NCBI GenBank assembly: GCA_003244105.1
Contig: QHBK01000004.1
Location: forward strand, 1-64,000
Reading direction: 5' to 3'
DNA length: 64,000 nt
DNA from: Candidatus Eremiobacter antarcticus
GTDB taxonomy: Bacteria; Vulcanimicrobiota; Vulcanimicrobiia; Eremiobacterales; Eremiobacteraceae
Shown here: positions 47,107 through 64,000 of the stretch, in pieces
How positions within the stretch are numbered: the first letter of the stretch is position 1
Layout of the letters: every line of letters begins with the position of its first letter
Made by a program: the position numbers and the translations under genes
The notes under the pieces: generated by a model
Seen by the model: only the letters and a program-made list of their open reading frames with translations
Databases searched by the model: none
What the model was told of the DNA's origin: nothing

Positions 47107-48555
47107 TCACAAATCGTGATAGAGATAGAATTCGTAGGGATGGGGACGGATTTTGACCTCTTGCACTTCTTTAATGCGCTTGTACTGCAGCCACGTGTCG
47201 ATGAGCTCTCGGGTGAACACGTCGCCTTCCAGCAAAAAGGCGTTGTCTTTCTCGAGGGCGTCGAGCGAGGCTTCCAAGCTGCCCGGGACCGATTTGATGC
47301 GCTTGGCCTCGCGCTCGGGCAAATCGTAGATGTTCTTGTCGAGCGGGCCGAAACCGGCTTTGACTGGATCGATCTTCTTCCGAATGCCGTCCAGGCCAGC
47401 CATCAGCAAGGCCGCGAAGCACAGGTACGGATTGGCAGCTGAGTCGGGCGGCCGGAACTCTATGCGTTTCGATTTTGAAAACTTGGGACCGAAGAAGAAC
47501 ACCGGAATGCGGATGGCCGCGGAGCGGTTGCCTTTGGAAAACGCGATGTTGACCGGCGCTTCGAAGTGCGGCACGAGCCGTTTGTACGAGTTTGTCGTCG
47601 GGGCGCAAAACGCCATCAGCGCGTCGATGTGCGTCAGCAAGCCGCCGATGTAGTAGTGCGCCAGCTGCGACAGTTCGGCATAACCGTCGGCGGCGTAGAA
47701 CAGATTTTTTCCGCCCTTCCACAAGCTCTGATGCACGTGCATGCCGGAGCCGTTGTCCCCGAAGAGCGGTTTGGGCATGAACGTGACGGTCTTTCCGTGG
47801 CGGCGCGCGACGTTGCGCGTGACGTACTTGTAGATCATCACGTTGTCGGCTTGCTGCAGCAGCGTGTCATAGCGGATGTCCAGTTCAGTCTGGCCGGCGG
47901 TCGCGACTTCGTGGTGATGCATCTCCACGGGGACGCCCCAGTCGATCAAGCTGAGCATCATCTCCGAGCGGATGTCCATATGCTTGTCGGAGGGCTGTAC
48001 GGGGTAGTAGCCTTCCTTGGGCCGCAAGCTATACCCGAGGTTTGGAGTCTCATGATCGCCTGCGTTCCAGTGCGCTTCTTCGGAATCGATCGCGTAGCCC
48101 ATCATGTACGGCTGAATGTCGAAACTGATGTGGTCGAAGATGTAGAACTCGAGTTCAGGGCCGAAGTACGCGACATCCGCGATCCCACTGTCCTGCAGGT
48201 ACCCTTCTGCGCGCGTGGCGATGTTGCGCGGGTCTTTCCCGTAGAGCTGCTGCTCGCGCGGGTCGAAGACATTGCAGATCAACGAAACGGTCGGAATGTT
48301 GCAAAAGGAATCGACGCGCGCCGACTCCGGCTGTGGCAGCAGCACCATGTCGCTTTCCTGGATCTCTTGAAAACCGCGTATGCTGGACCCGTCGAATCCG
48401 ACGCCGCTCACAAACGTGCTTTCATCCACCACGTCTGCGGGCACGGAAGAGTGCTGCCACATGCCCGGTATATCCACGAACTTGAAATCGACGATCTTCG
48501 CGCCGCTCTTCTTGATGAAGTCGAGCGCGGACTTTCCACTCGAGGCAGCCGGCAC
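47107..48555 (-). CDS. glnA: Glutamine synthetase type I, beta form
   Basis: The 482-residue enzyme shows FKFVDIPGMWQHSSVPA, FDGSSIRGFQEIQESDM, GPELEFYIFDHISFD, HHHEVATAGQTELDIRY, MPKPLFGDNGSGMHVHQSLW and FGPKFSKSKRIEFRPPD. The adenylylation-site loop NIYDLPERE with its Tyr is present, so activity control by GlnE-type adenylylation is possible. It makes glutamine from glutamate, ammonia and ATP. GTG start after AAAGGAG. The 48556-48776 leader contains a small inverted repeat (GCCGG-CCGGC) but no clear promoter. Confidence 0.95.
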   Translation of the reverse strand: MPAASSGKSALDFIKKSGAKIVDFKFVDIPGMWQHSSVPADVVDESTFVSGVGFDGSSIRGFQEIQESDMVLLPQPESARVDSFCNIPTVSLICNVFDPREQQLYGKDPRNIATRAEGYLQDSGIADVAYFGPELEFYIFDHISFDIQPYMMGYAIDSEEAHWNAGDHETPNLGYSLRPKEGYYPVQPSDKHMDIRSEMMLSLIDWGVPVEMHHHEVATAGQTELDIRYDTLLQQADNVMIYKYVTRNVARRHGKTVTFMPKPLFGDNGSGMHVHQSLWKGGKNLFYAADGYAELSQLAHYYIGGLLTHIDALMAFCAPTTNSYKRLVPHFEAPVNIAFSKGNRSAAIRIPVFFFGPKFSKSKRIEFRPPDSAANPYLCFAALLMAGLDGIRKKIDPVKAGFGPLDKNIYDLPEREAKRIKSVPGSLEASLDALEKDNAFLLEGDVFTRELIDTWLQYKRIKEVQEVKIRPHPYEFYLYHDL

Positions 48556-49978: not shown

Positions 49979-50073
49979 GAAAAGAACTCCGCTCAGCGTA
50001 GTTAGCACCCCGCCTCACGTTCGCCCGGGACGAAAGCGCCCCTGGTGCCTCGCCGCTTTCCCGGAAGGCCCGA

Positions 50074-50102
50074 TTGCGCCCGGCGCGGCGGAGCGCTATA
50101 CT
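50074..50102 (+). promoter_or_regulatory. Promoter of TPR gene, leaderless arrangement
   Basis: TTGCGC (50074-50079), 17-nt spacer, TATACT (50097-50102). The ATG at 50112 lies 10 nt after the box, so transcription would start within about 3 nt of the ATG. Confidence 0.6.
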
Positions 50103-50111
50103 ATTACGCAC

Positions 50112-51287
50112 ATGAAAGCGCCGCGTCTTCGCATCGTCAGCGCATTGATGGCCGCCGCGATCATCGCGATGCTGACCGCAGTCTCTTCCGCAGCGCCGGC
50201 AAATCCGCTCGACGGCTCAAACGCTCAGGCGAGCGAACTCCTGAATCAGGCGGCACGCGATGCGGCCGCCGGCCACAACACGGTCGCGCGCCAGGCGTTG
50301 ATCAAAGCGGCCGCTATTGATCCCTCGAACATGGCAGTGCAGAAACTGCTGGGCGATGTCGAGTACCGTCTCGAGCACTACGCCGCGGCGGCAACGGCGT
50401 ACCGCTTGGTCTTGGCGCGTGACCCCACGAATAAGGAAGTGCATAACCGTTTAGGCGGCGTGTATGCCGCCCAAGATGATCTCGCCAATGCAACGGCGGA
50501 ATTCCGCCGCAGCTTGCCGCTTTCCGAAGGTTTTATCAACCTCGTGCAGACCTACGCTGACATCGGCAAGCTGGGTGACCTGGAAGCCGAGTACTTCCGG
50601 GATATGGAGCACGAGCCGTACGAGCCGATCGCTCACTACAACTTGGGCTACATCTACTACTATGAGAAGAAGTATGGCAACGCCATCGCTGAGTACCAGG
50701 CAGCACTGGATCGCGGATCGCGCTATAATGATGCGCGCAACGCGTTGGGAATGGTGTACGGCGACCTGGGCCGATACGACCAGGCCATTGCTGAATACAA
50801 GAACGTCTTGAAGCAAGACCCCACCTACTACCTTAGCTGGATGAATTGGGGCGTCGAACTGATCCGCCAGGGCAAATACGACGAGGCGATCGAGAAGCTC
50901 AACCAGGCGATCGAGATCAAACCCGACTACGCGCGTTCGTACGACAACCTCGGCGTCGTGTACGACTACCGCGGTGATTTCAACAAGGCAGTGGAGTTGT
51001 ACGAGAGATCACTGGCGCTCGATCCGCGCCAGCGCGAGGCGTATCAGAACCTCGGCAGCATCTATTTCACCCATAACCTCATCAATCTGGCTGAGGCGGC
51101 CTTCATCAAAGGTTTGGCGGTGGCTCCTCACTTCGCCGACTTACATTTCAACCTCGGCGTGGTCTATCAGCATCAGCGCAAGTTCGCGCTCGCGGCTCAG
51201 CAGTACAAGGACGTGCTGGCGGTGGCACCCGACAACGCGAGCGCGCGCGCTCAACTCGCGACCGTTCAAGCCGCCATCACCCGCTAA
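50112..51287 (+). CDS. Exported TPR-repeat protein
   Basis: A signal peptide (residues 1-28, SALMAAAIIAMLTAVSSAAPA) is followed by nearly continuous TPR units to the end of the 391 residues. Repeat landmarks are A-Y-x-LGxVY and L-P-type pairs, e.g. NALGMVYGDLGRYDQAIAEY, NWGVELIRQGKYDEAIEKLN and NLGVVYDYRGDFNKAVELYE. About nine repeats fit. It should be a periplasmic or surface scaffold. There is no Shine-Dalgarno and the promoter suggests a leaderless mRNA. The partner is unknown. Confidence 0.88.
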   Translation: MKAPRLRIVSALMAAAIIAMLTAVSSAAPANPLDGSNAQASELLNQAARDAAAGHNTVARQALIKAAAIDPSNMAVQKLLGDVEYRLEHYAAAATAYRLVLARDPTNKEVHNRLGGVYAAQDDLANATAEFRRSLPLSEGFINLVQTYADIGKLGDLEAEYFRDMEHEPYEPIAHYNLGYIYYYEKKYGNAIAEYQAALDRGSRYNDARNALGMVYGDLGRYDQAIAEYKNVLKQDPTYYLSWMNWGVELIRQGKYDEAIEKLNQAIEIKPDYARSYDNLGVVYDYRGDFNKAVELYERSLALDPRQREAYQNLGSIYFTHNLINLAEAAFIKGLAVAPHFADLHFNLGVVYQHQRKFALAAQQYKDVLAVAPDNASARAQLATVQAAITR

Positions 51288-51313
51288 ACGCTCGAACCAA
51301 GCTCTAGTCTCTG

Positions 51314-51697
51314 CTAGGAAGCGCTCCTCTTCGCGGCGATGACGTCCACTTCTATGAGAGCGCCTTTGGGAAGCGCAGAAGCCCCGGTCGTGGTCCTGGC
51401 CGGCCGGTGGGATCCGACGTAGCGCTCGTAGACCGCATTGACGGCGGCGAAGTGTGCGAGATCGGCCATGAAGATATTCACCTTCACAACATCGCCGAAG
51501 CTCGAGCCTGCCTCTTGCAAAATCGCGGAGATGTTGCGAAAAGCCTGATCTGCCTGAGCCTCCACTCCATCGGCAAGCTCGCCGCTTTTGGGGTCGGTTC
51601 CCAGTTGGCCGGCGGTAAACACCAGTCCATCATTTTCCACCGCTTGGCTGTACGCTGCTACGGGGGTCGGGGCGTTGGGAGACGAAATCAATCGCAT
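51314..51697 (-). CDS. RidA family deaminase
   Basis: The 127-residue protein begins MRLISSPNAPTPVAAYSQAV; motifs GLVFTAGQLGTDPKSGELAD, QADQAFRNISAILQEAGSSF and RTTTGASALPKGALIEVD with the key Arg-Thr are those of RidA/YjgF. It removes reactive enamine/imine intermediates formed by PLP enzymes such as the dehydratase at 10057. Longer N-terminal residues in the open frame do not fit the family. Convergent with the TPR gene. Confidence 0.92.
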   Translation of the reverse strand: MRLISSPNAPTPVAAYSQAVENDGLVFTAGQLGTDPKSGELADGVEAQADQAFRNISAILQEAGSSFGDVVKVNIFMADLAHFAAVNAVYERYVGSHRPARTTTGASALPKGALIEVDVIAAKRSAS

Positions 51698-51746
51698 CTC
51701 GCATTGTGCAACGCTCTGCCGGGCGCAACCTGCCCGAGGAGGTGTC

Positions 51747-51959
51747 ATGGCGACGACGATCATCTACACGAAGCCGGGCTGCCCATATTGTGCCGCCGCA
51801 CTCGCGGATTTCCAAAGCCGGGGCGTGCCATTCCGCCAGATCGACGTGCAACACGATCTCGCCGCGCGCGAGCGCATGCGGGCGTTGTCGGGCGGATTGA
51901 GAGTGCCGACCATCGTGGGCGAAGACGGGAGGGTCTCAGTCGGTTTCGACGGCGCCTGA
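51747..51959 (+). CDS. Glutaredoxin-like protein
   Basis: The 70-residue protein starts MATTIIYTKPGCPYCAAALA with the CPYC redox site, then a cis-Pro LRVPTIV and GFDG end, the thioredoxin-fold hallmarks of a small glutaredoxin. The strong site GAGGAGGTG precedes the ATG. The stop is 73 nt before the GAF gene. It probably reduces mixed disulfides; no glutathione-specific evidence is visible. Confidence 0.88.
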   Translation: MATTIIYTKPGCPYCAAALADFQSRGVPFRQIDVQHDLAARERMRALSGGLRVPTIVGEDGRVSVGFDGA

Positions 51960-52031
51960 ACGGTTCACGACTGACGGGCGTGCCCGTCCCTGCCGATACT
52001 AAAGACGGCGCCTTCGGGTGACCGTTTTCCT

Positions 52032-53846
52032 ATGACAGAGATGACGTTCCGTTCGCCGCTCGATGAGGCGCGCTGGGTCGAGAGCAGCATCCTCAAATCG
52101 AGGCTGCTGTCCGTCGGTGTTGGCGCAGTTCTCCTCGCCATGCTGCCTTGGCCGTATCCGCGCTGGACGCAGGCCCTCATCGTCGCGATGTGGCTGGCGC
52201 AGGGACTCGTTGCAGCGAGCTTCGTGCGGAGAGCGACGACCGTCAAGCAGATCCGCTGGTCCGGGCGCATTCTGCTCGCGGCCGACACCCTGGAACTTGC
52301 GTCTGTCGCCTATCTGTACATGCCCCTGTTGCCCGAAGCATGGCTCTCCATGTTCCTCCCGATCACGTGGGGCGGGATACGAGAACGCATCGCCGGCGCC
52401 GTCAGCGCAGCCGCGCTGACGACCGTATTGCTCGTGGTGTCCTTCATCTTCCATCCGCCGCCGCCGGCGCCGGAGTCGTACGTCAGCAGGCTCATCTACG
52501 ACGCCAGCATCGTGTGGCTGTTCGTGTTCGCTGTGCGATTGCTCGTGCGCGGGGTGGCCGTACGCAGCGACGTCCTGGCCGTGCAACGCGAAAAGCTCGA
52601 GAAGGCGGCGAGCGCGCAGTCTCAGCTGCGCAGCCTCTCCGACGTGCAAGCATCCACGATCAAGAAGGTGACGGAGCTGGCCGTGAGCCTGCTGCGCGAG
52701 CGTCAGCTCGACGCGTTGCTCGACCGCATGTTGGACGTCACGATGCAATCGTTCGGTTTCGCCAGCGGCTCGATTCTGGTGGCTGAAAGAGATAAGGAAG
52801 CGTACGTCTATCGGGCCATTCGCGGCTACCCGCCAAGCGCAGAAGCGCTGCTGCGAAAGCGGCAGGTCTCGTTCGCCATGGCGGAGCTGAAGCTCGACAA
52901 ACGCTTTTCCTTGACTCCGTCGCTGTTCTACGCACCCGCCGAACGCCAGACCTGGTACACCGATCCAGAGATGTGCCGGCATCCGGATCTCGTGAACCAA
53001 CGCCGCGCCGATGGGGGGGCATGGCACGAAGCGGACTGCTTGATCTTCACGCTCCTCAGCTCATCGGGCGAGGTCATCGGGCTGCTGGTCCCCGACGCTC
53101 CTTTAGAGGGCCGAGTGCCGTCGCATGAAACGCTGGACGCGATGAGTCTGTTCGCGCGTCTCGCCGCCGCCGCCATCGAGAACGTCCACATCGTGACGAC
53201 TGAGAAGAGCCGGGCGAATACGCTCAGCGAGCAAAACGTCGAGATGAAGCGGCTCTATGCAAACGTGGAGGCGCTGGCAGAGGAGCGCCGCCTGCAGGCC
53301 GACCGGCTGGCGCGGATCCTCGAGTTGACGGCGGCCATCTTCCGCGAGCGCAACCTCAAGACGATGCTTCGCCGCATCCTCAAGGTCGCGGTAGATACCT
53401 TCGGTTTTTCGGCCGGCACGATCTTGCTGCGCGATCCCGCTCGCGATGTTTTCATCCGCCACGCGGCCGTCGGCTACTCGCAAGACGTCGAGGGCGTGGA
53501 AATGACCGGCGAGGACGTGCGCTCGGACATGACGCCGGTGACGCGCGTGCGCGAGACGTACTACTACATTCCGATGGAGCTGCATCACTCGGGTGGCGTC
53601 ACGCGTAATCCCGATCGCTTGGAGCTGCCGCGCATTCTGCCGGGCGATTGGCATGAGAACGACCTGTTGATATTCCCGATCTTCGACTCCGTCGGCACGC
53701 TGATCGGCGTGCTGTCCCCCGACGATCCCAAAGACCATCGCATACCGAGCGATGAGACGATCCGCACGATCGAGGTCTTTGCGCAGCTGGCCGGCATGGC
53801 CGTGGAAAGCGCGCGGCTGCGCGCGGAAACGACCGTCTCAGTCTAA
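52032..53846 (+). CDS. Membrane-anchored two-GAF sensor protein
   Basis: The 604-residue protein has about five membrane helices in the first 170 residues, a coiled coil (EKLEKAASAQSQLRSLSDVQ), a GAF domain at about 220-385 (SFGFASGSILVAERD to AIENVHIVTTEK), a second coiled coil, and a second GAF at 430-600 (FGFSAGTILLRDPARDV to GMAVESARL). No kinase, GGDEF or DNA-binding domain follows, so output must come from a partner or by conformational coupling. The ligands of GAF are unknown. ATG 52032 has no strong site. Confidence 0.82.
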   Translation: MTEMTFRSPLDEARWVESSILKSRLLSVGVGAVLLAMLPWPYPRWTQALIVAMWLAQGLVAASFVRRATTVKQIRWSGRILLAADTLELASVAYLYMPLLPEAWLSMFLPITWGGIRERIAGAVSAAALTTVLLVVSFIFHPPPPAPESYVSRLIYDASIVWLFVFAVRLLVRGVAVRSDVLAVQREKLEKAASAQSQLRSLSDVQASTIKKVTELAVSLLRERQLDALLDRMLDVTMQSFGFASGSILVAERDKEAYVYRAIRGYPPSAEALLRKRQVSFAMAELKLDKRFSLTPSLFYAPAERQTWYTDPEMCRHPDLVNQRRADGGAWHEADCLIFTLLSSSGEVIGLLVPDAPLEGRVPSHETLDAMSLFARLAAAAIENVHIVTTEKSRANTLSEQNVEMKRLYANVEALAEERRLQADRLARILELTAAIFRERNLKTMLRRILKVAVDTFGFSAGTILLRDPARDVFIRHAAVGYSQDVEGVEMTGEDVRSDMTPVTRVRETYYYIPMELHHSGGVTRNPDRLELPRILPGDWHENDLLIFPIFDSVGTLIGVLSPDDPKDHRIPSDETIRTIEVFAQLAGMAVESARLRAETTVSV

Positions 53847-53880
53847 GCTCGGGTTCCCAGAAGCGGGCCGCACCGCCGGC

Positions 53881-55206
53881 CTACATGGAGAGATACGCCT
53901 CGATCTCCCACGGATGCACCTGCGTGCGATATGATTCCCACTCTGCGAGCTCGGCTTCGCGCAGCCGGTGATAGCTGTGGTCGCCGAGCGCCGCCCGCAT
54001 AAGCGGGTCGTCGTCTAGAGCGAACACGGCTTCCTGCAGGGACGCGGGCAGCTGCTCGATGCCGAGATTCAGCCGCTCTTCATCGCTCAGCGACGTCACC
54101 GGCGATTCGACCGGATCGCCGGGCGCGAGCGAGCGCTTCACGCCGTCCAAGCCGGCTTTCAGGACGCACGCGAGCGCCAGATACGGGTTGCATAACGGAT
54201 CGGGCGACCGAAGCTCGACGCTGACCTCGGGCAACGCTTGTTGCGGTACGCGGATCAACGCGCTCTTCGCGCGCAGCGACCATTGGATGTAGGCGGGCGC
54301 ATCGTAGCCCGCGACTAGGCGTTTGTACGAGTTGACGGTGGGGTTGGTCACGGCCGTGAAACCGCGCGCGTGGGCCAGCAAACCGCCGATGTACGAAAGA
54401 CCAGTCTCGCTCAAGGAGCCCGGATTCGGAGCGCCGGCGTCGTGGAAAGCATTCTTTCCGTCGCGCATCAAGCGCTGCGCGATGTGAAGGCCGCTGCCGT
54501 CCTGATCCGTGAACGGCTTGGGCATGAACGTCGCGTGCAGGTTGTGCCGGGCGGCTACGGTCTTGACCACGACGCGGGCGGTGGCGATGGCGTCAGCGAG
54601 GCCCAGCACGTCGGGGGCATTGAGGTCGATCTCATGCTGGCCGTGCGACACCTCATGATGCGTCGCCTCGACGTGAATGCCCATGTCTTGCAGCGCCATG
54701 GCGGCATCGCAGCGCGCGACGTCTCCTCGGTCCATCGGGCTGAGGTCGAAATACGAGCCGCGGTCCGTCGTGAAGGTGGTCGCGGCGCCGTCTTTGGGAT
54801 GCTCGAAGAGAAAGAACTCAAGTTCCGCGCTTGCCTGCGCGCTGAACCCTTCACGTGTCACCTCTTCCAAAACCCGCCGCAGCGTGCTGCGCGTGCAGCC
54901 CTCGAAGGGCGAGCCGTCGGGGTTGTGCACGTCGCACAACAAGCGGGCTTCGACTGGGGAGCCCGGCGGCGTCCACAACACCGCGAACGTGCGCGGATCC
55001 GGAGCCAAGTACATGTCGGACTCCTCGTGGCGCACGAACCCTTCGATGCAAGAGCCGTCGAACGCCACTTTGTCGTCCAACGCCGCTTCCAGTTCCGCGA
55101 CCGGGATGGCGACGTTCTTGGTGACCCCGTGGATGTCGTTGAACTGGAGCCGCACCAGGCGCACGTCGAGGTCTTTGGCGCGCCGCAGAAGATCGCGCTT
55201 GGTCAT
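53881..55206 (-). CDS. Glutamine synthetase type I, alpha form
   Basis: The 441-residue protein has GSI landmarks: LQFNDIHGVTKNVAIPV, VAFDGSCIEGFVRHEESDMY, SAELEFFLFEHPKDG, THHEVSHGQHEIDLN, FMPKPFTDQDGSGLHI and VELRSPDPLCNPY. Its length and lack of the beta-form adenylylation loop put it with Bacillus-type GSI-alpha or a glnA-like catabolic ligase. It overlaps the PucR gene by 4 nt and is last of a five-gene run with aminotransferase. It may act on glutamate/ammonia or on an amine such as a polyamine; substrate not shown. Confidence 0.88.
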   Translation of the reverse strand: MTKRDLLRRAKDLDVRLVRLQFNDIHGVTKNVAIPVAELEAALDDKVAFDGSCIEGFVRHEESDMYLAPDPRTFAVLWTPPGSPVEARLLCDVHNPDGSPFEGCTRSTLRRVLEEVTREGFSAQASAELEFFLFEHPKDGAATTFTTDRGSYFDLSPMDRGDVARCDAAMALQDMGIHVEATHHEVSHGQHEIDLNAPDVLGLADAIATARVVVKTVAARHNLHATFMPKPFTDQDGSGLHIAQRLMRDGKNAFHDAGAPNPGSLSETGLSYIGGLLAHARGFTAVTNPTVNSYKRLVAGYDAPAYIQWSLRAKSALIRVPQQALPEVSVELRSPDPLCNPYLALACVLKAGLDGVKRSLAPGDPVESPVTSLSDEERLNLGIEQLPASLQEAVFALDDDPLMRAALGDHSYHRLREAELAEWESYRTQVHPWEIEAYLSM

Positions 55207-56423
55207 TGCGGCTCCTCCGACGCGTTCATCTGGCGGATCGCGAGCGCAGCTCGCAGCGAGAGCTGATCCTTGGTCGTCTTGAGGTCGACGTTGAGGATCT
55301 GCGAGATCTGATTTAAGCGATAGAAGATCGTGTGGCGGTGGACTGACAGCCGTTCGGCCGCGACCTTCACGTTCTCACCGGCCTCGAGGTAGAGCTGCAG
55401 CGTTTTCAGCAGATCGGTCTTATGGCGGCGGTCGTAAACGGCCAACGGTTCGATCAGGGCAGCGGCAAAGCTCGCAAAGGCCTCGCGATCGCCGCCGCCG
55501 TGAAGCAGCGCGAATATTCCGAGATCCGGATAGACGGCGACCGAGCCAGGGCCGAAGAGGCGGCGCCCCAGCGAAAGCGCTTCGCGGGCTTCACGCAAGG
55601 AAAGCGGCACGTGCAGCAGCTCCTTGTGGAAGGCGCCGATGCCGCAATTCACCGACCGCGCTGATCGTTGCGCGGGCAGCTCGCGCACGACGTGGGCCGA
55701 TGCCTGGCGCGCGCGGGCGACGTCCACTTGGTGCCGTATCGGAAAAAGCGTGACCACCTGTCCGGCAGCCGGGCTCAAGGGGCACAGCGCCTCGGTCGCG
55801 GCCAGCGCGTGCGTGATGAGCTCGCGCGCCGCCTGCGGCGCAATGCCTTCGACGTCGAAGATCGCGGCCAACAACGCCGCCGGTAAAGGGACACCCGCCG
55901 CCGCGGCTTCTTGCCTCACACCTGCCGAATCGCCCAACTCGCCCGTGAGAAAACGCTCCCAGAACAAGCGCCTGGCCTGGCTCGGCATGGATCCCCGCCG
56001 CAAGTGGTCCACAGCGGCGACGCTGGCGGTGATGCGCAAGGCCGGTGCGACGTCGCTACGCGATTTGCCGCGCACGAAGAGCGTGACGTAGCCGGGCACC
56101 GCGTTGGAATCGCCGTGACCGGGCATGTGGGCGCAGAATCCTTGCATGGAATCTGAGATAGCCGCTTGCACGACGACGCCGTTCTTAGCTGCCTTCACGC
56201 CGGCTTTTTGGTAGAAGGGCAGAAACGATGGCGGCAGTGGCCCCGGCAGACCCTTCGGTTCCGCAAGCGCGAGGTGACGCCACTGGTCGTCTTCGATCAG
56301 GACGGCGCCGCCGGTCGCCTCGCAGAGAAGTTGGGCAAGCGCTTTGAGCCCGCCACCTCCCGAAAGCAGACTGGCAGCGCGTTCGCTCAGGCCCGCGAGC
56401 TCGTCTGCGGTCATCTCGGCCAA
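55203..56423 (-). CDS. PucR family transcriptional regulator
   Basis: The 406-residue protein has a GAF/NreC-like N-terminal sensory part (LAQLLCEATGGAVLIEDD), a central region with GIGAFHKELLHVPLSLREAR, and a C-terminal HTH of the PucR type (LKTLQLYLEAGENVKVAAER, SVHRHTIFYRLNQI). PucR-type regulators usually activate purine, amine or amino acid catabolism in answer to an inducer. Its start is ATG. It overlaps the glutamine synthetase start by 4 nt, so it probably controls this operon. Confidence 0.88.
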   Translation of the reverse strand: MAEMTADELAGLSERAASLLSGGGGLKALAQLLCEATGGAVLIEDDQWRHLALAEPKGLPGPLPPSFLPFYQKAGVKAAKNGVVVQAAISDSMQGFCAHMPGHGDSNAVPGYVTLFVRGKSRSDVAPALRITASVAAVDHLRRGSMPSQARRLFWERFLTGELGDSAGVRQEAAAAGVPLPAALLAAIFDVEGIAPQAARELITHALAATEALCPLSPAAGQVVTLFPIRHQVDVARARQASAHVVRELPAQRSARSVNCGIGAFHKELLHVPLSLREAREALSLGRRLFGPGSVAVYPDLGIFALLHGGGDREAFASFAAALIEPLAVYDRRHKTDLLKTLQLYLEAGENVKVAAERLSVHRHTIFYRLNQISQILNVDLKTTKDQLSLRAALAIRQMNASEEPQ

Positions 56424-56448
56424 ACGTTGAAGATCAAGCTCGTGCGCC

Positions 56449-57729
56449 TCATGGCCCGATGCCGAAGATGAGGATGAAGAGATAGGCGCCGGTCGCCGCG
56501 ATGAGTGCCAGCGCGGTCAGCCAAGCGATGATATTAAAGGCCAATCCGTTCACGTGTCTGCCCATCAGCGCGCGATCGTTCACCAAACGCAGCATCGAGA
56601 TCACGACGACCGGCAGCAGCATGCCTGAGATGACCTGCGACCAGAAGATCAGCGTCAGCAGCGGCGCGCCGGGTATGAGGACGAGGAGCGCGGCCACACC
56701 GATGATGGCCAAATAGAGGCCGAAGAAGATGGGTGCTTCGCGAAAACGCTTGTCGATGCCAGATTCGAAGCCGAACGCTTCGCACACCGTGTAGGCGGTG
56801 GACAACGGCAGAACCGAAGCGGCGAACAGCGACGCGTTCAACAGGCCGACGGCGAAGAGCAGCGCTGCATACCTGCCCGCCAGCGGCTCAAGCGCGAGCG
56901 CGGCTTGACCGGCGTCCGTCACGTGCACGTGGTGCACGAAGAGGGTGGCTCCGCAGGCTACGATGATGAAGTAGGCGACGATGTCGGTGATGAACGAGCC
57001 GATGACGACGTCGGCCTGCGAGTACCGCAGCTCGCGCGGCTTGATGCCCTTTTCCACGACCGAAGCCTGGATATAGAACTGCATCCATGGCGCGATGGTC
57101 GTGCCGATCAGGCCGATGAACATCGCGAGATAGGCGGAGCTCCAGTGAAACGTCGGCACGACGGTGGCGTGGAGCACGACCGGCCAGTCGGGTTTTGCGA
57201 GCAGCCCGGACACGATGTATGTCAGGTACACGAGGCAGGCGAAGAGGAAGACCTTTTCGATGACCTTGTAGTTGGCGCGCAGCACGAGCACTGCCACGGC
57301 GACCGCCGCCAACGTCACCAGCACGAAACGGCTCACGTTGAAGACGTCGGCGCTCGCGGCCACACCGGCGAATTCCGCCACCGTGGTGAAGAGGTTGGTC
57401 AGCAGCAAGCCGACCATGATGAACAAGGTGATGCGCACGCCGAAGCGCTCGCGGATGAGGTCGGCCAGGCCCTTGCCCGTGATCACGCCTAAGCGCACGC
57501 ACATCTCTTGGATGACGATGAGCGCGAGGGTGACCGGGATCAACAGCCACAACAGCCCGAATCCGAATTGCGCGCCGGCCAGCGAATAGGTCGCGATCCC
57601 ACCCGCGTCGTTGTCGATGTTGGCGGTGATGAGGCCGGGGCCGACGATCGACAGAAAAATGAGCAGCGAGCGCCAGGGGCCGGCACGCTTCGATCGCGGC
57701 TTTCGGTCGACGGTTTCTACCAGTTCCAT
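56449..57729 (-). CDS. NRAMP-related transporter with non-canonical metal site
   Basis: Eleven-helix NRAMP protein of 426 residues beginning VGPGLITANIDNDAGGIATY. In canonical Mn/Fe NRAMP the TM1 motif is DPGN and TM6 is M-P-H; here TM1 reads DAGG and TM6 reads TTIAPWMQFYIQ, so the metal-binding Asn and Met and the His are lost. Family knowledge links loss of the Met with Mg2+-type specificity, as in NRMT proteins. It lies 63 nt from a soluble MgtE-N/CBS protein, supporting Mg2+ import. Specificity is inferred, not proven. Confidence 0.85.
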   Translation of the reverse strand: MELVETVDRKPRSKRAGPWRSLLIFLSIVGPGLITANIDNDAGGIATYSLAGAQFGFGLLWLLIPVTLALIVIQEMCVRLGVITGKGLADLIRERFGVRITLFIMVGLLLTNLFTTVAEFAGVAASADVFNVSRFVLVTLAAVAVAVLVLRANYKVIEKVFLFACLVYLTYIVSGLLAKPDWPVVLHATVVPTFHWSSAYLAMFIGLIGTTIAPWMQFYIQASVVEKGIKPRELRYSQADVVIGSFITDIVAYFIIVACGATLFVHHVHVTDAGQAALALEPLAGRYAALLFAVGLLNASLFAASVLPLSTAYTVCEAFGFESGIDKRFREAPIFFGLYLAIIGVAALLVLIPGAPLLTLIFWSQVISGMLLPVVVISMLRLVNDRALMGRHVNGLAFNIIAWLTALALIAATGAYLFILIFGIGP

Positions 57730-57792
57730 AACGCTCGATGGACGAGCGGCCGCAACGACCGCTCGAGAACAGACGGATCACGCCCTCGCGGC

Positions 57793-59103
57793 TTAGCCCA
57801 GATTCGACCTCGAACGCGACTTCCCCACGCGCGGGAACGACTTGCGCAATTTTTCGGGCAACAACACGTCGATGACGTCGTCGACCGTAACGATGCCGTG
57901 CATGCGGCCTTGTTCGTCGACGACGGGCACGGCGACGAAATCGTAGCGCGCGATGAGCGAGGCGACGTCTTCGCTTGAGGCGTGCAAATCGACCGTGACG
58001 ACGTCGTCGACCGCGATGTCCACGACGGACGCCTCCGGCTGCGCGGTCACGAGGTCCCGCAAGGACACGACGCCCAGAATGTTCTCTTGCGGATCGAGGA
58101 CGTAGATATAGTACACGAGCTCCGCATCCTTGGCGGCCGAACGGATGTGCTCGAAAGCTTGCGCCACCGTGAGGTTGGGAGGCAGCCAGAGATATTCGGT
58201 CGTCATGAGACCACCGGCGGTCGTCTCCGAATGCGAGAGCAGCTCCCGTACGTCGCGCGCCTCGTCGGGCTGCATCAGCGCGAGGATCTCCTGCTGCTTG
58301 TCGCGGTCGATCTCGCCCAGTAGGTCGGCGGCATCGTCCGGCGTCATGTTTTCGATGATGTCGGCGGCGCGGTCCGGCTGCAGGTCCTCCAGGATGGAAA
58401 GCTGCGTGTCGACATCGAGCTGCTCGAGCGCGTCGGCTGCCGTTGCCTCATCCAAGGATCCGATCAGCGAGGCCTGATCGCCGGCCGCGAGATCTTCGAT
58501 GATGGCTGCCAGATCTGCTGGGTGGATGCGGTCGATGCGGTCCTGCGAGACACGCAAGCGGATGGCGTCGCCGGGCATGTCGTGATGCAATGGCTGCACG
58601 GCGTCCCATGAGATCAGCGACGAGCGCACGCCTGAAGGGCTGGGCTTTTTCGCCAACTGCTGGCTGAAGCTGCGCAGCCCAAGGCGGCGCAGCAACCCCG
58701 GAAGCCCGACGTCGGCGGCGATGACGCGCAGATGCTCGCCCGCCGGTGCCAGCTTCACGTCGTTGACGCGCACCACTTTGCGCCCGTCGACGTCGACGAT
58801 CTGCTTGTCGAGCAGTTGCTTGGACAGCAGCAGCTGATCGCCGGCCAAGGTGGCCTGATTCATGTCAACCGGCGCCTTGCTCAAGGCGACGGCCTTATCG
58901 TCAAACGATGCGATGCTCGCAAATGGAGCATAGCGTGTGACGCCGTCGATGCCTTTGACGTACAATCCGACCACGGGCGGAAAGCTCTCGCCGCCGGAGA
59001 CGGCGATATCTTCTACCTTGCCGATGCGAAAACGCTGGGTGCCGGTGCGCAGTTGGACCGTCTGGCCGATGACTTCGCTTGCGAATGCATCGCGCAATTC
59101 CAC
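57793..59103 (-). CDS. Soluble MgtE-N/CBS Mg sensor with PRC-like N-terminus
   Basis: The 436-residue protein has two PRC-barrel-like modules in the first 150 residues (GKVEDIAVSGGESFPPVVGL and KQIVDVDGRKVVRVNDVKL), then the MgtE intracellular domain (IHPADLAAIIEDLAAGDQAS, DEATAADALEQLDVDTQLSI, TPDDAADLLGEIDRDKQQEI) and two CBS units (TTEYLWLPPNLTVAQAFEHI; DDVVTVDLHASSEDVASLIA). The membrane channel of MgtE is missing. It should sense Mg2+ and adenine nucleotides and control the NRAMP-related transporter encoded next. ATG start. Confidence 0.88.
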   Translation of the reverse strand: MELRDAFASEVIGQTVQLRTGTQRFRIGKVEDIAVSGGESFPPVVGLYVKGIDGVTRYAPFASIASFDDKAVALSKAPVDMNQATLAGDQLLLSKQLLDKQIVDVDGRKVVRVNDVKLAPAGEHLRVIAADVGLPGLLRRLGLRSFSQQLAKKPSPSGVRSSLISWDAVQPLHHDMPGDAIRLRVSQDRIDRIHPADLAAIIEDLAAGDQASLIGSLDEATAADALEQLDVDTQLSILEDLQPDRAADIIENMTPDDAADLLGEIDRDKQQEILALMQPDEARDVRELLSHSETTAGGLMTTEYLWLPPNLTVAQAFEHIRSAAKDAELVYYIYVLDPQENILGVVSLRDLVTAQPEASVVDIAVDDVVTVDLHASSEDVASLIARYDFVAVPVVDEQGRMHGIVTVDDVIDVLLPEKLRKSFPRVGKSRSRSNLG

Positions 59104-59147
59104 CGCTGGCTTCCTCCGGCGACACCGATGTCAAGTGAGGGCGAAGC

Positions 59148-60476
59148 TCAGGCCTCGCGAATGGCCCGTTCCAGGATGTCCACCGCTCTATCGATCTGCG
59201 TGCGGTCGACCACGAGCGCAGGCGTGAATCGCAAAGCGGAAAACCCACAGGGCAAGAGCATGAGCCCGTGCAGAAAGCACCGTTTCAAAACGCGGTCGCG
59301 GAAAGCCGGGTCGGGCGTCCGCGAAGCACGATCGGTCACGAAATCGACGGCCAGCATGAGCCCTTTGCCGCGGACGTCACCGATCGCAACGAAGCGTTCC
59401 TGCAACTCGCGCAGCTTCGCGATGAAATACCCGCCGAGTTCGGCGGCCCGCTCCACCAAACGCTCCTCTTCCATGACATCGAGCGTCGCTTTGGCTGCGG
59501 CGAGCGCGATGCCGTTGCCGCCGAACGTGTTGGAGTGCGCGCCTTGCTCGCCGAAATCGAGATCGGCGTCCAAAACGGTGGCCGCAACCGCCACGCCCGA
59601 GCCTAACGCCTTGCCGAGCGACGTGCAATTGGCGGTGACGCCGAAATGCTCGATGGCGAGCATCTTGCCGGTCTTGCCCATGCCCGCTTGGACCTCGTCA
59701 TCCACGTAGGCGATGCCGTAGCGGCTTGCGATATCGCGGATGATGGGCACCCACTCGGGCGGTGGAACGATGTAGCCGCCTTCGCCTTGGATCGGCTCTA
59801 CGAAGATGGCGGAAACCTCGTCCGGGGGTATGAGCTGCTTGAAATACAGTTCTTCCAGGATGCGCGCGCACCAGATGTCGCAATTCGGGTAGGTCATCTT
59901 ATACGGACAGCGATAGCACGTCGCGTACGGCAGGTGGTGCACGTCTGGCATGTTCGGCGTGAAGCGCGCGCGTTGGGCGATCTTGCTTGCCGTCATGGAA
60001 TTGGCACCCATGGTGCGCCCGTGGAAGGCCCCGATGAACGCGATCAGCCGTTTTCGAGTCGGCTTGTTCCAGCGAGTGGCCTTGATGGCGGCTTCGTTCG
60101 CCTCGGTGCCGCTGTTGCACAGGAAGACCTTTTTTGAGTGCAGTCCGGGGACGAGCCGCACCAAGCGCTCTGCGACCTCGGCTTGCAAAGGCGAATAGAA
60201 ATCCGGGCTGTTGATGAAGAGCCAGCGCTCCGCCTGCTCCGCGATGGCCTCGGCGACTTTCGGATGCGAATGGCCCGTCGCGGCGACCATGCCGCTCGTG
60301 AAGTCTAAGAAGACGTTGCCGTCGACGTCCTCGACGAGCAATCCAGAAGCGCGCTTGACGACGATGGGAGCCGTCTTCGTGCCGGTCGTGACGGTCGCGG
60401 ACTCGGCTGCGACCACACGGCGGCCTTCCGGCCCCGGTATGTCGTAGGTGGGGATCGGGGGAGAAGTCTCGAGCAT
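59148..60476 (-). CDS. Class III aminotransferase (GabT / archaeal-type ornithine aminotransferase-like)
   Basis: The 442-residue PLP enzyme has the GSGTEANEAAIKATRWNK-like region (FLCNSGTEANEAAIKATR), FIGAFHGRTMGANSMT, a Cys-bearing loop LPYATCYRCPYKMTYP, VEPIQGEGGYIVPPPEW, VDDEVQAGMGKTGKM and the PLP Lys in SLGKALGSGVAV. The loop and PPDEV are typical of Thermococcus/Pyrococcus-type ornithine aminotransferase/racemases and GabT. It probably starts the operon, giving semialdehydes or racemised amino acids. Substrate unproven. Confidence 0.9.
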   Translation of the reverse strand: MLETSPPIPTYDIPGPEGRRVVAAESATVTTGTKTAPIVVKRASGLLVEDVDGNVFLDFTSGMVAATGHSHPKVAEAIAEQAERWLFINSPDFYSPLQAEVAERLVRLVPGLHSKKVFLCNSGTEANEAAIKATRWNKPTRKRLIAFIGAFHGRTMGANSMTASKIAQRARFTPNMPDVHHLPYATCYRCPYKMTYPNCDIWCARILEELYFKQLIPPDEVSAIFVEPIQGEGGYIVPPPEWVPIIRDIASRYGIAYVDDEVQAGMGKTGKMLAIEHFGVTANCTSLGKALGSGVAVAATVLDADLDFGEQGAHSNTFGGNGIALAAAKATLDVMEEERLVERAAELGGYFIAKLRELQERFVAIGDVRGKGLMLAVDFVTDRASRTPDPAFRDRVLKRCFLHGLMLLPCGFSALRFTPALVVDRTQIDRAVDILERAIREA

Positions 60477-60577
60477 CCCTCGTGGTTCTGCGTTTCACGC
60501 TTGCTTACATCCCAAGCGAGGCTTGGCTGCGCCACAGCGCGCAAAGCGATGCGTGCTCAGCCAGCGAACGCGCCGCC

Positions 60578-61258
60578 ATGACGGCGATCGGGTTTGATTT
60601 CGATCACACGCTGGGCACCGACAACCAAGTGGAGCGTTTCGCGTTCGTCAAGGCCGCGAGCGACCTGGGCGCCGCACACGGAGTCGCAGTGAACGGACTT
60701 GCGGCGTTCGAGGCAATCGATCGTGAGATCCGATCTTTTCGAGCCGGGCAGTGCTCTCTCGAGGTGGCTCTTCGAAGAGCATTTGCTGCCACGCTGCCCG
60801 AGGCCGCCATCGACCATCGAGCGGCTGAGCGTTTCCGCGAGCTGGCAGTCCAAATGGTGCCTTCGTACGTGCGCGCGCTTCCCGGCGTCGATGCCTTATT
60901 GCACGCGTTGGATGATGCGTTGGTGCCGTACGCGATACTGACCAACGGCTGGAACCCGTTGCAGCAGCGCAAGGCCGACGCTGTCGGGTTTCGCGGTCCG
61001 GTGTTGGTCAGTGAGGATCTTGGCGTCCGCAAACCGGGCGCCGGCGCGTTCGCGAAACTGGGCGAAGTCTTGGGCGTGGATTCGACGGATGTTTGGTATG
61101 TCGGGGATGATCCGCACGCCGACGTGGGCGGCGCTCTAAGCGCAGGGATGCGCGCCATCTGGTTCGATTGGGAAGGCCGTCCGTACCCCGCCGAGCTCGC
61201 CGCTCCTACTGCGACGATTCACCGGATTGCGGACGTGCTTTCGGTGGTGCCGGTCTAG
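60578..61258 (+). CDS. HAD-superfamily hydrolase
   Basis: The 226-residue product has HAD motif I GFDFDHTLGTDN (nucleophile Asp, general Asp is His-preceded: DFDHT), motif II LTNGWNP, motif III Lys in RKPGAGAFAKLG, and motif IV VGDDPHADVGGAL. A small alpha cap is present (residues 15-95). The ATG at 60578 begins directly at motif I; upstream frame is unrelated. It should be a phosphatase on small metabolites. Monocistronic by position, convergent with the next gene. Confidence 0.88.
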   Translation: MTAIGFDFDHTLGTDNQVERFAFVKAASDLGAAHGVAVNGLAAFEAIDREIRSFRAGQCSLEVALRRAFAATLPEAAIDHRAAERFRELAVQMVPSYVRALPGVDALLHALDDALVPYAILTNGWNPLQQRKADAVGFRGPVLVSEDLGVRKPGAGAFAKLGEVLGVDSTDVWYVGDDPHADVGGALSAGMRAIWFDWEGRPYPAELAAPTATIHRIADVLSVVPV

Positions 61259-61271
61259 GGCAGCTTGCGCA

Positions 61272-62042
61272 TCAGACGCAGCCATTCGCCTTGTTCGACC
61301 ACTCGAGCTGCACCGTGTACGCGCCGATCTTCTTGGTCTGCCAAGCGCAGATATCGCCGATCTCTCCGTTGGCGTCGTCATACCAGCTTTGCCCTGGGAT
61401 GGGGTCGGTGACCGCCTCGCACAGCTCGTGCGACGCAGCGACGGTGATGGCGTCGAGCACAGGCATGCCGTTGAGACATCCGGTGCAGTCGGGCGACGGC
61501 AGGACGCCGTAGAGAATGTCCTTGCGGATGGCGTCATGATAGCCGCAAAACGACGCGCAAGACCGCGCTTTGCCGGCGACCGCCGTCACACCGCTGGGCA
61601 GATGGAACATGAACAGCGTGTTGGCACTCGGTTTCGGAAAGGCGGGATTATTGGCGATCTCCGCCTTGAGCCGCTTGCGAAGCGTCGCGTCACTGACCGT
61701 CCGCCGGTGAGAGGTTTCGAGCACGGCGGAACCGGCGTACGTGCCGGTCGCGATCGTGGTGCCGCCGGCGCTGTACTCGTTCAGTTCGCGCAGCACGGCG
61801 CTGCTCACGATGAAGCGATAGAAATCTTCGATGGATGCCATCAGCCCACTTTGCGGCGAGGTCAGCCACGCGTGTCCCCAAAAAATCGCGAAGACGTCGA
61901 CGGCCGCGATGACAGGTCCGCCGCGGTAGGTCAAGCGCGCCCCGGCGGGAGCCTGAACGGCAGCCGCCGTTGCGAGCCTCAACTCGTCGTCGGGGACTTT
62001 GATGGGAACGATTCGAACGGCGTTTCTTCTTGTGATTGCCAT
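61272..62042 (-). CDS. Conserved protein with HEL-E-type metallopeptidase-like motif
   Basis: The 256-residue product has no signal peptide by my reading. Strand-rich N-part (LTYRGGPVIAAVDVFAIFWG, then AWLTSP) leads to a Cys-rich area (SCASFCGYHDAIR, DCTGCLNGM) and AASHELCEAVTDPIPGQSWY, ending GEIGDICAWQ. The HELxEAxTDP element is like that of a bacterial secreted family of putative metal-dependent hydrolases; Asp-rich WYDDANGEIGD could ligate Ca. Function unproven. RBS: GGAGAAG. Confidence 0.5.
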   Translation of the reverse strand: MAITRRNAVRIVPIKVPDDELRLATAAAVQAPAGARLTYRGGPVIAAVDVFAIFWGHAWLTSPQSGLMASIEDFYRFIVSSAVLRELNEYSAGGTTIATGTYAGSAVLETSHRRTVSDATLRKRLKAEIANNPAFPKPSANTLFMFHLPSGVTAVAGKARSCASFCGYHDAIRKDILYGVLPSPDCTGCLNGMPVLDAITVAASHELCEAVTDPIPGQSWYDDANGEIGDICAWQTKKIGAYTVQLEWSNKANGCV

Positions 62043-62114
62043 GATCTATGCCGCTTCTCCGTTCGCTGAGCTCATCGGGTTCGTGTACTGCGGTCCAGCG
62101 CCTGTCCCTTCCAA

Positions 62115-62921
62115 ATGCTGACGAGTCGTTCGCTCGAGGACCGCATGGCCACGGCGTCGCGCGCCGCCCGAGCCGGCGGCACGTTGCTGCGCGAGAAGCT
62201 GGGCACTGATATCGGCGTGCGCTCGAAAGACGTGCGCAGCAATCTTGTGACGGAAGCTGATACGCAAAGCGAAGCGCTTATCCGCCGCATGATCGCAAAC
62301 GAATTTCCGGCTGACGCGCTGCTTGGCGAAGAGACTGGAGCGAGCGGAAACAGCGAGCTGGCGCGCTGGATCGTCGATCCCCTGGATGGAACGACGAACT
62401 ACTCGCATGGTTACCGCTGTTTTTGTGTGTCCATCGCCTTCGAGATGGCCGGCGTCGTCGAGCTGGGCGTCATCTACGATCCCATGGCCGGAGAGGAGTA
62501 CTGCGCCCGTCGCGGCCACGGGGCCAGCTGCAATGGCGAGCCGATCCGCGTCTCAGTGCAGGACGATCTGCGCGACACGCTGCTTGTGACGGGTTTTCCG
62601 GCTCATAGAGTCGACGATCCCGTCGGCAACCTGCGCCCGTTCGCCGAGTTCATGGCAAAGGCGCAAGCGATCCGTCGCGACGGGTCGGCGGCGCTCGATC
62701 TCTGTTACGTCGCTGGCGGAAGGCTCGACGGCTTTTGGGAGCCCGGCTTGCACGCGTGGGATATCGCGGCGGGTGCGCTCATCGTCGAGGAAGCGGGCGG
62801 CAGGGTCAGCGACTACAGCGGCAGGCAGGCGCAGCTCGACGCGGGCGAGATCGTCGCATCAAACGGTAAAGTGCACGAAGCGATGCTGGCGGTGTTGCGT
62901 CCGTATGCCGGCGGCGCATGA
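62115..62921 (+). CDS. Inositol monophosphatase family phosphatase
   Basis: The 268-residue enzyme has the Li-sensitive phosphatase motifs: LLGEETG (metal Glu), WIVDPLDGTTNYSHGYRCFC (motif A) and HAWDIAAGALIVEEAGG (motif B), plus RRDGSAALDLCYVAGG. It cleaves inositol phosphate or a related sugar phosphate (or PAP/NADP). Start ATG 62115 (alternative at 62145, 10 residues shorter). Its stop overlaps the YqeC start by 4 nt, so they are co-transcribed with the Moco genes. Confidence 0.92.
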   Translation: MLTSRSLEDRMATASRAARAGGTLLREKLGTDIGVRSKDVRSNLVTEADTQSEALIRRMIANEFPADALLGEETGASGNSELARWIVDPLDGTTNYSHGYRCFCVSIAFEMAGVVELGVIYDPMAGEEYCARRGHGASCNGEPIRVSVQDDLRDTLLVTGFPAHRVDDPVGNLRPFAEFMAKAQAIRRDGSAALDLCYVAGGRLDGFWEPGLHAWDIAAGALIVEEAGGRVSDYSGRQAQLDAGEIVASNGKVHEAMLAVLRPYAGGA

Positions 62922-63688
62922 ACGAAGCGCAAAGCTGGCGGCAAACACTCGGCCTGAGCGCTCGCGAGCACATCGCGCTCGTCGGCGGAGGAGGCAAGAC
63001 GACGACGTTGTGGTCCGTGGCAAAGGAACTTGCCACATCGGCGGGAGACCGGGGGACCATCGCGACGTCGACGACCAAGGCCGGGGCGCCGCCGGCCGGC
63101 GTTCCACTCGTCATTTGGAACGCCGACGCCGGTTATGGACAGCTCGCTGAGGATGTGAGCGCGGCGGCCCGCAGCACCTCACTCGTGGCCGTCGGGAGCG
63201 GCGTGCGCAACGATCGACTGCAGGCCGTAAACCCGCCGGTGCTCGATCAGCTGTTTTCTCAAGACGCCGCCCACGTCGTCAATGAGGCGGACGGCGCTCG
63301 CATGAAGCCCTTCAAAGCGCCGGCCCATCACGAACCGGTGCTTGCGAGATCCACCACTTTCGCCATCATCGTGCTGGGCCGAGACGCTATGCGGTCGCCA
63401 ATCGACGACGACCACTTGCATCGAGCCGAGCTCATAGCGCAGCTCGCAGGTGCGTCGTTGGGCAGCGAGCTGAGCGCCTCACACGTGGCGGCCATCGTGG
63501 CAACGTATATCAGCAAGATCAAATGTCAGGCGGCCGCGGCCCGCATTGCGTTGTTGATCAACAAACTTGACGACGGGCCCGACGAAGAGTCCGAGCGCGT
63601 GGTTCGGGCGGTGTCGCATCTTCCGCTCGATCGCATTGCCGGTGCCTGCCAGCTCACAATGGAAGCGCGGCTATGGCGCTTGCGCTGA
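62918..63688 (+). CDS. yqeC: YqeC-like molybdenum hydroxylase accessory protein
   Basis: The 256-residue protein has a P-loop VGGGGKTTTLWSVAKEL, TIATSTTKAGAPPAG and NEADGARMKPFKAPAHHEPV, followed by a helical end; this set fits the YqeC family (putative selenium-dependent hydroxylase accessory), encoded with MocA and the XDH-family hydroxylases. It likely helps deliver or mature the cofactor for the enzyme at 24-28 kb. It overlaps the IMPase (4 nt) and the MocA-like gene (16 nt). Confidence 0.85.
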   Translation: MNEAQSWRQTLGLSAREHIALVGGGGKTTTLWSVAKELATSAGDRGTIATSTTKAGAPPAGVPLVIWNADAGYGQLAEDVSAAARSTSLVAVGSGVRNDRLQAVNPPVLDQLFSQDAAHVVNEADGARMKPFKAPAHHEPVLARSTTFAIIVLGRDAMRSPIDDDHLHRAELIAQLAGASLGSELSASHVAAIVATYISKIKCQAAAARIALLINKLDDGPDEESERVVRAVSHLPLDRIAGACQLTMEARLWRLR

Positions 63689-64000
63689 GTCCGAGAATCG
63701 CCTGCATTGTGCTGGCGGCGGGAGCCGGCCGCCGTTTTTCCCATGACCGAGACAAACTGCTGATGGATCTCTCCGGCAAGCCGTTGCTGCAGCACGCCAT
63801 CGATGCGGCGGCAGCTTCGAGCTGCGTCGCCTGCTCTGTCGTCGTGGGCGACAATGCCGAACGAATCGCGAATGCGGTCGATCTGCGACGCTGCGCCCTG
63901 GTGCAGAACACTCAGCCTGACGATGGCATCTCGTCTTCGCTGCGCACCGGTTTGGGGTATCACATGGGCGAGGATGCCTGCATCTTCATGCTCGCCGACC
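63673..64000 (+). CDS. mocA: MocA-like Moco cytidylyltransferase (5' part)
   Basis: The frame is cut by the window end at 109 codons. The product begins with SPRIACIVLAAGAGRRFSHD and KLLMDLSGKPLLQHAIDAAA, the nucleotide-binding signature of MobA-like NTP-transferases, and continues QNTQPDDGISSSLRTGLGYH. That ISSSLRTGL pattern is of MocA and related Mo-cofactor cytidylyl/guanylyltransferases and of the purine-linked NTP transferases. Its closeness to yqeC supports maturation of the molybdopterin cytosine dinucleotide cofactor. ATG at 63673 overlaps the yqeC stop. Confidence 0.85.
   Translation, partial: MALALSPRIACIVLAAGAGRRFSHDRDKLLMDLSGKPLLQHAIDAAAASSCVACSVVVGDNAERIANAVDLRRCALVQNTQPDDGISSSLRTGLGYHMGEDACIFMLAD

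Follow-up and report, generated by a model that had tools for sequence, protein, structure and literature searches.

A conserved gene cluster of Eremiobacteria suggests a tie between divalent-metal supply and the handling of an amine compound

Why would a bacterium line up an aminotransferase, a magnesium-sensor-like protein, a metal transporter, a PucR-family regulator and a second enzyme of the glutamine synthetase (GS) fold in a single row of genes? The question is raised by a locus in a stretch of 64,000 nucleotides (the window) on contig C4 of a Ca. Eremiobacterota genome of 2.64 Mb. Five open frames, all on the minus strand, follow one another: a class III, pyridoxal phosphate (PLP)-dependent aminotransferase at 59148-60476 (Pfam Aminotran_3, PF00202, E 1.4e-101; PLP lysine K289 in the motif SLGKALG), MgtEN, a soluble protein made of a PRC barrel, an MgtE-N domain and a CBS pair, at 57793-59103 (GTG start), an NRMT-type transporter of the SLC11/NRAMP family at 56449-57729 (Pfam Nramp), a PucR-family regulator at 55203-56423 (TTG start; Pfam GGDEF_2/HTH_30) and a GS-like enzyme on a GSI-alpha scaffold at 53881-55206 (Pfam Gln-synt_N/C), the metal ligands of which are intact and the acceptor site of which carries substitutions. 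Gaps of 44, 63 and 25 nt separate the first four genes, and the last two overlap by 4 nt (55203-55206). The open-frame check returned the same genes and spacings as the initial annotation, and its family calls were upheld by Pfam. The initial annotation had also named terminators between the genes as a sign that would speak against one operon; none of the four junctions holds a minus-strand terminator-like site, the predicted ones being all intragenic, and the total number of such sites was 9, against 5.5 ± 2.9 in shuffled sequences.

The Eremiobacterota are a little-studied group of soil bacteria. The conservation of this cluster in them suggests, without proving it, that divalent-metal uptake is coordinated with the processing of an amine. 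In the full model that we propose, and to which we give about an even chance, a module for metal homeostasis and a module for amine glutamylation are neighbours throughout the class Eremiobacteria and have been fused into one operon in the lineage of the window. The model is built on gene families, synteny, residue changes and the distribution of a riboswitch, from which we infer the substrate, the direction of regulation and the physical coupling of the modules.

Synteny was counted by whole-genome searches of relatives within the class. The PucR gene abuts the GS-like gene in 52 of 52 relatives, at a spacing of -7 to 56 nt, and MgtEN lies upstream of this pair, on the same strand, in all 80 class genomes that carry both on one contig, 12 further genomes having them on separate contigs; the median distance is 3.0 kb. 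This linkage exceeds chance. The position of MgtEN upstream of PucR-GS thus bore out the conserved synteny for which the initial annotation had asked, but the exact five-gene order was found in only 4 of the 53 genomes with a GS-like gene, and the five genes are not a fixed unit, since the aminotransferase comes and goes and so does the transporter, the mobile component, which often lies elsewhere or inverted. The other orders were MgtEN-NRMT-PucR-GS (22/53), MgtEN-PucR-GS (16/53, one of them with its NRMT 1.5 Mb off on the same contig), aminotransferase-MgtEN-PucR-GS (5/53) and an NRMT inverted in place (2/53), with the last 4/53 cut by contig ends. Of 60 genomes, 56 have NRMT together with MgtEN and the remaining four have neither, counts that are uncorrected for kinship. 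In other classes of the phylum MgtEN is present, but neither NRMT nor PucR-GS stands beside it. Outside the phylum, the flanks (up to 10 kb) of 79 GS relatives from Bacillota, Actinomycetota, methanogens, Acidobacteria and others contained no NRMT or PucR gene, and only two MgtE-N-type matches, profile search included.

The genome has two GS genes, the one that is not the GS-like gene being a canonical GSI glutamine synthetase (GlnA; 47107-48555, minus strand) 5 kb outside the operon, with all listed catalytic residues canonical. The GS-like proteins of Eremiobacteria form a monophyletic clade nested in GSI-alpha (support 100/99). Using enterobacterial numbering, with equivalences taken from an alignment made in this analysis, we found that none of the 23 class sequences keeps the canonical residues at S52/S53, N264, E327 (in the Glu-flap role) and R339 (the arginine of catalysis), the changes being S52G or S53C, N264D/A, E327D and R339K/A/V; the closest outside relatives, from Bacillota and methanogens, mostly retain E327 and R339. 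The window protein has D at 327, K at 339 and D at 264. The changes are milder in its family (S→C, N→D, E→D, R→K), and in the sister families every one of them shrinks the side chain (S→G, N→A, E→D, R→A/V), so that the acceptor pocket would be enlarged there. The metal ligands E129, E131, E212, E220, H269 and E357 are invariant in all 23 members, the window protein included, as are R321, R344 and R359. Known gamma-glutamyl-amine ligases are changed at the same site too. An altered acceptor is likely on sequence grounds, and "candidate gamma-glutamyl-amine ligase" describes the operon GS better than a role in ammonia assimilation would. "GSI-alpha", as first annotated, therefore describes the scaffold well but not the presumed ordinary function, and the automated label "type I glutamate-ammonia ligase" probably misleads for the whole clade.

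Identity with the known gamma-glutamylputrescine synthetase was rejected (NF045547, 288 bits against a cut-off of 650). So was a role as the sole GS of the genome: another GS was found in almost all genomes, three drafts showing one only, and each of the six genomes (6/60) that lack the GS-like gene has another GS, which marks the GS-like gene as accessory. The GS-like gene of genome G025 (locus L192), which looked broken because its match was split, is a single open frame that contains an insertion. As a separate observation, Bacillota of the Desulfotomaculum group (L080, L082, L084; also L078, L081) have two to three GS genes close together, some of which show a non-canonical Glu-flap residue and miss the E357 metal ligand.

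As regards the metal genes, the best match of the transporter in the PDB is EleNRMT (7qia, 361 bits, E 8.2e-107), followed by MntH (104 bits, E 6.5e-29). NRMTs are a branch of the NRAMP family able to carry Mg2+, EleNRMT being a Mg2+ transporter, and are recognised by DxxG in the first transmembrane segment (TM1) and TxxA/T in TM6 instead of DxxN and A/CxxM (PMC8806188). The window protein reads DAGG and TTIA and lacks the TM6 methionine, which refines the "non-canonical NRAMP" of the initial annotation to an NRMT; across the class, DxxG is present and the methionine absent in 41 of 41 sequences, with Ser at the A/T position in 34 of 41. Most NRMTs adjoin a gene for the cytosolic domain of MgtE (Shin 2014, PMC4072509), and the pairing of MgtE-N with NRMT is an already known association, not a new one. 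MgtEN ends after the CBS pair and has no transmembrane pore domain, so that it is not an MgtE channel. The best fold match of its predicted model, which at a mean pLDDT of 77 and a pTM of 0.47 is reliable for the domains and not for their arrangement, is the MgtE cytosolic domain (2yvy/5x9g). In an alignment to Thermus MgtE, all 26 MgtEN proteins of the class have the Mg2+ ligands D91, D95, D226, D247 and D250 unchanged. Conservation of the ATP site in the class is partial: the window protein has Y170, R187, D188 and F227 but not N203, and F227 is Leu in 17 of the 26. It is established elsewhere that the cytosolic domains of MgtE shut the channel upon Mg2+, and by analogy MgtEN may act in trans on NRMT.

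The M-box (RF00380), a Mg2+ riboswitch, separates the loci further. A model built for the class gave 139-176 bits at 29 loci and at most 20 bits elsewhere; Rfam itself was given 24 of the 29 and reports every one of them. All 29 precede MgtEN-NRMT, NRMT alone or an inverted NRMT (for example L065:7480-7654, L034:12098-12274, L059:9165-9332 and L058:8795-8963, plus 25 other loci). No M-box was detected by this model in the whole window, and a search of 50000-64000 with RF00380 (E ≤ 1) was likewise empty; the operon holds no other Rfam element either. The M-box is absent from the four loci with the five-gene order (0/4), as well as from several sister-family loci with four genes (L040, L045, L057, L061, L064, L072). 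By this distribution the M-box goes with the NRMT unit rather than with PucR-GS, and the NRMT of the window lineage, a distinct branch on the NRMT tree, is under a different control.

PucR scores above the cut-off of both the HTH_30 and the GGDEF-like Pfam models; its predicted structure combines a GAF-like N-terminus, a GGDEF-like domain and a C-terminal HTH_30, with fold matches to Rv2242, BAD_0249 and the CodY GAF domain. The inducer-responsive switch proposed by the initial annotation is consistent with the predicted GAF-like domain, through which PucR may sense an amine or an amino acid. The best PDB match of the aminotransferase is 7vno, a hypothetical 4-aminobutyrate aminotransferase, and the protein stays below every NCBIfam equivalog cut-off shown; in the window's family, 17-455 nt separate its gene from MgtEN in all 12 genomes, a linkage confined to that family. 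In a sister family, an aromatic amino acid decarboxylase (AADC)-type enzyme, an aldo-keto reductase and RidA are found beside the GS-like gene, the decarboxylase, which scores 391 bits against 7xin, belonging to the aromatic amino acid/DOPA/tyrosine type (L034:3273-4781, L193:12619-14061, L194:13119-14528 and similar loci). Both settings, with aminotransferase and with decarboxylase, indicate amine metabolism. The RidA/YjgF gene of the window (51314-51763, minus strand, assigned by Pfam) lies outside the operon and is a long-term class neighbour of the GS-like gene, within 10 kb of it in 34 of 41 genomes of other families. A convergent gene for a GAF-domain protein (52032-53846) also adjoins the GS-like gene, a place that it retains in two of the three families covered.

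Put together, the two-module model would work as follows. NRMT would import Mg2+ (or Mn2+), and MgtEN would be a cytosolic metal sensor exerting feedback on NRMT; it would do in trans what these domains, as part of MgtE, do in cis. PucR, with an amine or amino-acid ligand on its GAF-like domain, would activate the downstream GS-like gene, the product of which, a GS-derived ATP-dependent gamma-glutamyl ligase, would glutamylate an amine in partnership with RidA and a PLP enzyme, namely the class III aminotransferase in the window's family and the AADC-like enzyme in the sister family. In the window lineage, where the five genes form one unit with no Mg2+ riboswitch, metal import would follow the PucR/amine signal. 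A functional coupling of metal and amine is plausible. The likeliest reason for the modules to be linked would be to balance cations or to provide the ligase with metal: glutamylation would strip a cationic amine of charge while a divalent metal enters the cell. Salmonella is known to balance and co-regulate polyamines and Mg2+ (PMC9972920).

Several observations weigh against this model. The riboswitch-less NRMT of Acidobacterium capsulatum behaved as a Mn2+ transporter, so that the metal of the window NRMT could be Mg2+ or Mn2+, and co-expression of the MgtE-N partner did not improve the rescue by that transporter. The GS-like clade keeps two ammonium-site residues, D50 and Y179, both of which GlnA4 and PauA7 lose. 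At MgtEN-PucR-GS loci without NRMT the M-box is absent (0/10). In three genomes of the window's family NRMT is inverted beside MgtEN and has its own M-box (L056:3144-4397, L059:9407-10657, L068:11912-13171), and several genomes carry, on the opposite strand, a gene for a PAS-GAF-GGDEF diguanylate cyclase that separates the metal module from PucR (L034:7423-9456, L042:6835-9084, L201:11553-13289); together these indicate that co-transcription is dispensable. Finally, TPR, RidA and inositol-phosphatase genes also often stay nearby, and local conservation or slow rearrangement may therefore explain part of the linkage.

The last points would also fit with independent modules that remain neutral neighbours through slow rearrangement of this block of the chromosome, the five-gene operon being a local accident, an explanation that we consider possible though doubtful. 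It would also account for the relocation of NRMT (at least six changes of state on its tree) and for the separability of the modules, MgtEN-NRMT being kept without PucR-GS in three genomes and PucR with the GS-like gene remaining in G025 (L192:8970-11556), where MgtEN and NRMT were not found. However, the order and strand of MgtEN-PucR-GS were held in 80/80 genomes despite about 45-55% identity between families, while the control genes moved: between families, the distance of canonical GlnA from the cluster goes from 5-21 kb to 21-57 kb, and Fpg, next to GlnA, is not retained. Moreover, MgtEN lies 21-43 nt from PucR in nine genomes once NRMT is elsewhere, staying joined to the regulator and the GS-like ligase.

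In an unlikely variant of the model, MgtEN would be a hub that senses cytosolic Mg2+ (or Mn2+) and acts in trans on both NRMT and PucR/GS-like ligase, the operon trading inorganic for organic cations. At L039, in genus g15, an M-box leads MgtEN-NRMT and PucR follows 31 nt behind, making read-through into PucR-GS possible; if this variant were true, the Mg2+ riboswitch would there directly control an amine-glutamylating enzyme.

Improbable, in turn, is that the GS-like protein is no biosynthetic ligase but a GS homologue with weak catalysis or a regulatory role, for instance a sensor of metal-ATP or glutamate acting on PucR. The loss of the catalytic arginine in the sister families (A/V), the changed Glu-flap residue in all and a gene that always overlaps or abuts that of PucR would agree with it, but the invariance of the six metal ligands and of the three arginines in 23 members argues for retained catalysis. 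Least probable is the first proposal for this locus, an operon feeding Mg2+/Mn2+ to an ordinary GS for nitrogen assimilation with PucR as the switch, for although the window protein passes the type I GlnA cut-off (TIGR00653, 452.1 against 429.15 bits) with its metal ligands, D50 and Y179 in place, two sister-family members fall below that cut-off (396 and 402 bits), positions 327 and 339 are changed in 23/23, a canonical GS coexists, the six genomes without the GS-like gene keep another GS, and the need of a GS for metal is too general to explain the linkage, since canonical GlnA depends on the same metals and yet drifts away.

With the two-module model, a link between divalent-metal supply and amine metabolism becomes testable, in a phylum that has a cultured representative, Vulcanimicrobium alpinus (PMC9758169), and the co-inheritance of MgtEN offers a natural-genetics handle on the soluble MgtE-N proteins beside NRMTs, the role of which has been in question since 2014. 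The statement in the initial annotation that no standard system has this composition holds for the full combination, of which no description was found in open-licence papers, but not for the MgtE-N and NRMT pair, which is known. The pairs described with an M-box (Shin 2014, PMC4072509; EleNRMT, PMC8806188) share the signature and the adjacent MgtE-N, and most relatives of the window also have the M-box; the window lineage differs in lacking it and in embedding the pair with PucR, the GS-like ligase and the aminotransferase. GlnA2, GlnA3 and GlnA4 of Streptomyces and PuuA/PauA are likewise second GS-fold genes with a substituted ammonium site and an intact metal site, whereas here the scaffold is GSI-alpha, D50 and Y179 are kept and the score remains far from the gamma-glutamylputrescine synthetase cut-off; unlike in Puu systems, no polyamine transporter or other Puu-type gene is among the identified cluster genes. 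In GABA (4-aminobutyrate) utilisation in Corynebacterium glutamicum (PMC7652997), the PucR-type regulator GabR is reported beside an aminotransferase-type gene, as here; our cluster differs in having no identified succinate-semialdehyde dehydrogenase and in having the ligase and metal genes instead. Polyamine and Mg2+ homeostasis in Salmonella (PMC9972920) is also a joint control of organic and inorganic cations, but relies on other genes (PhoPQ, MgtA/B, PaeA) with no comparable operon. Lastly, GSI-alpha glutamine synthetases such as that of Methermicoccus (8oow) share fold, length and metal ligands with the GS-like enzyme, which is 45-58% identical to its outside relatives, and differ from it at the Glu-flap, catalytic Arg and Asn264 positions, which are changed in the enzyme of this cluster.

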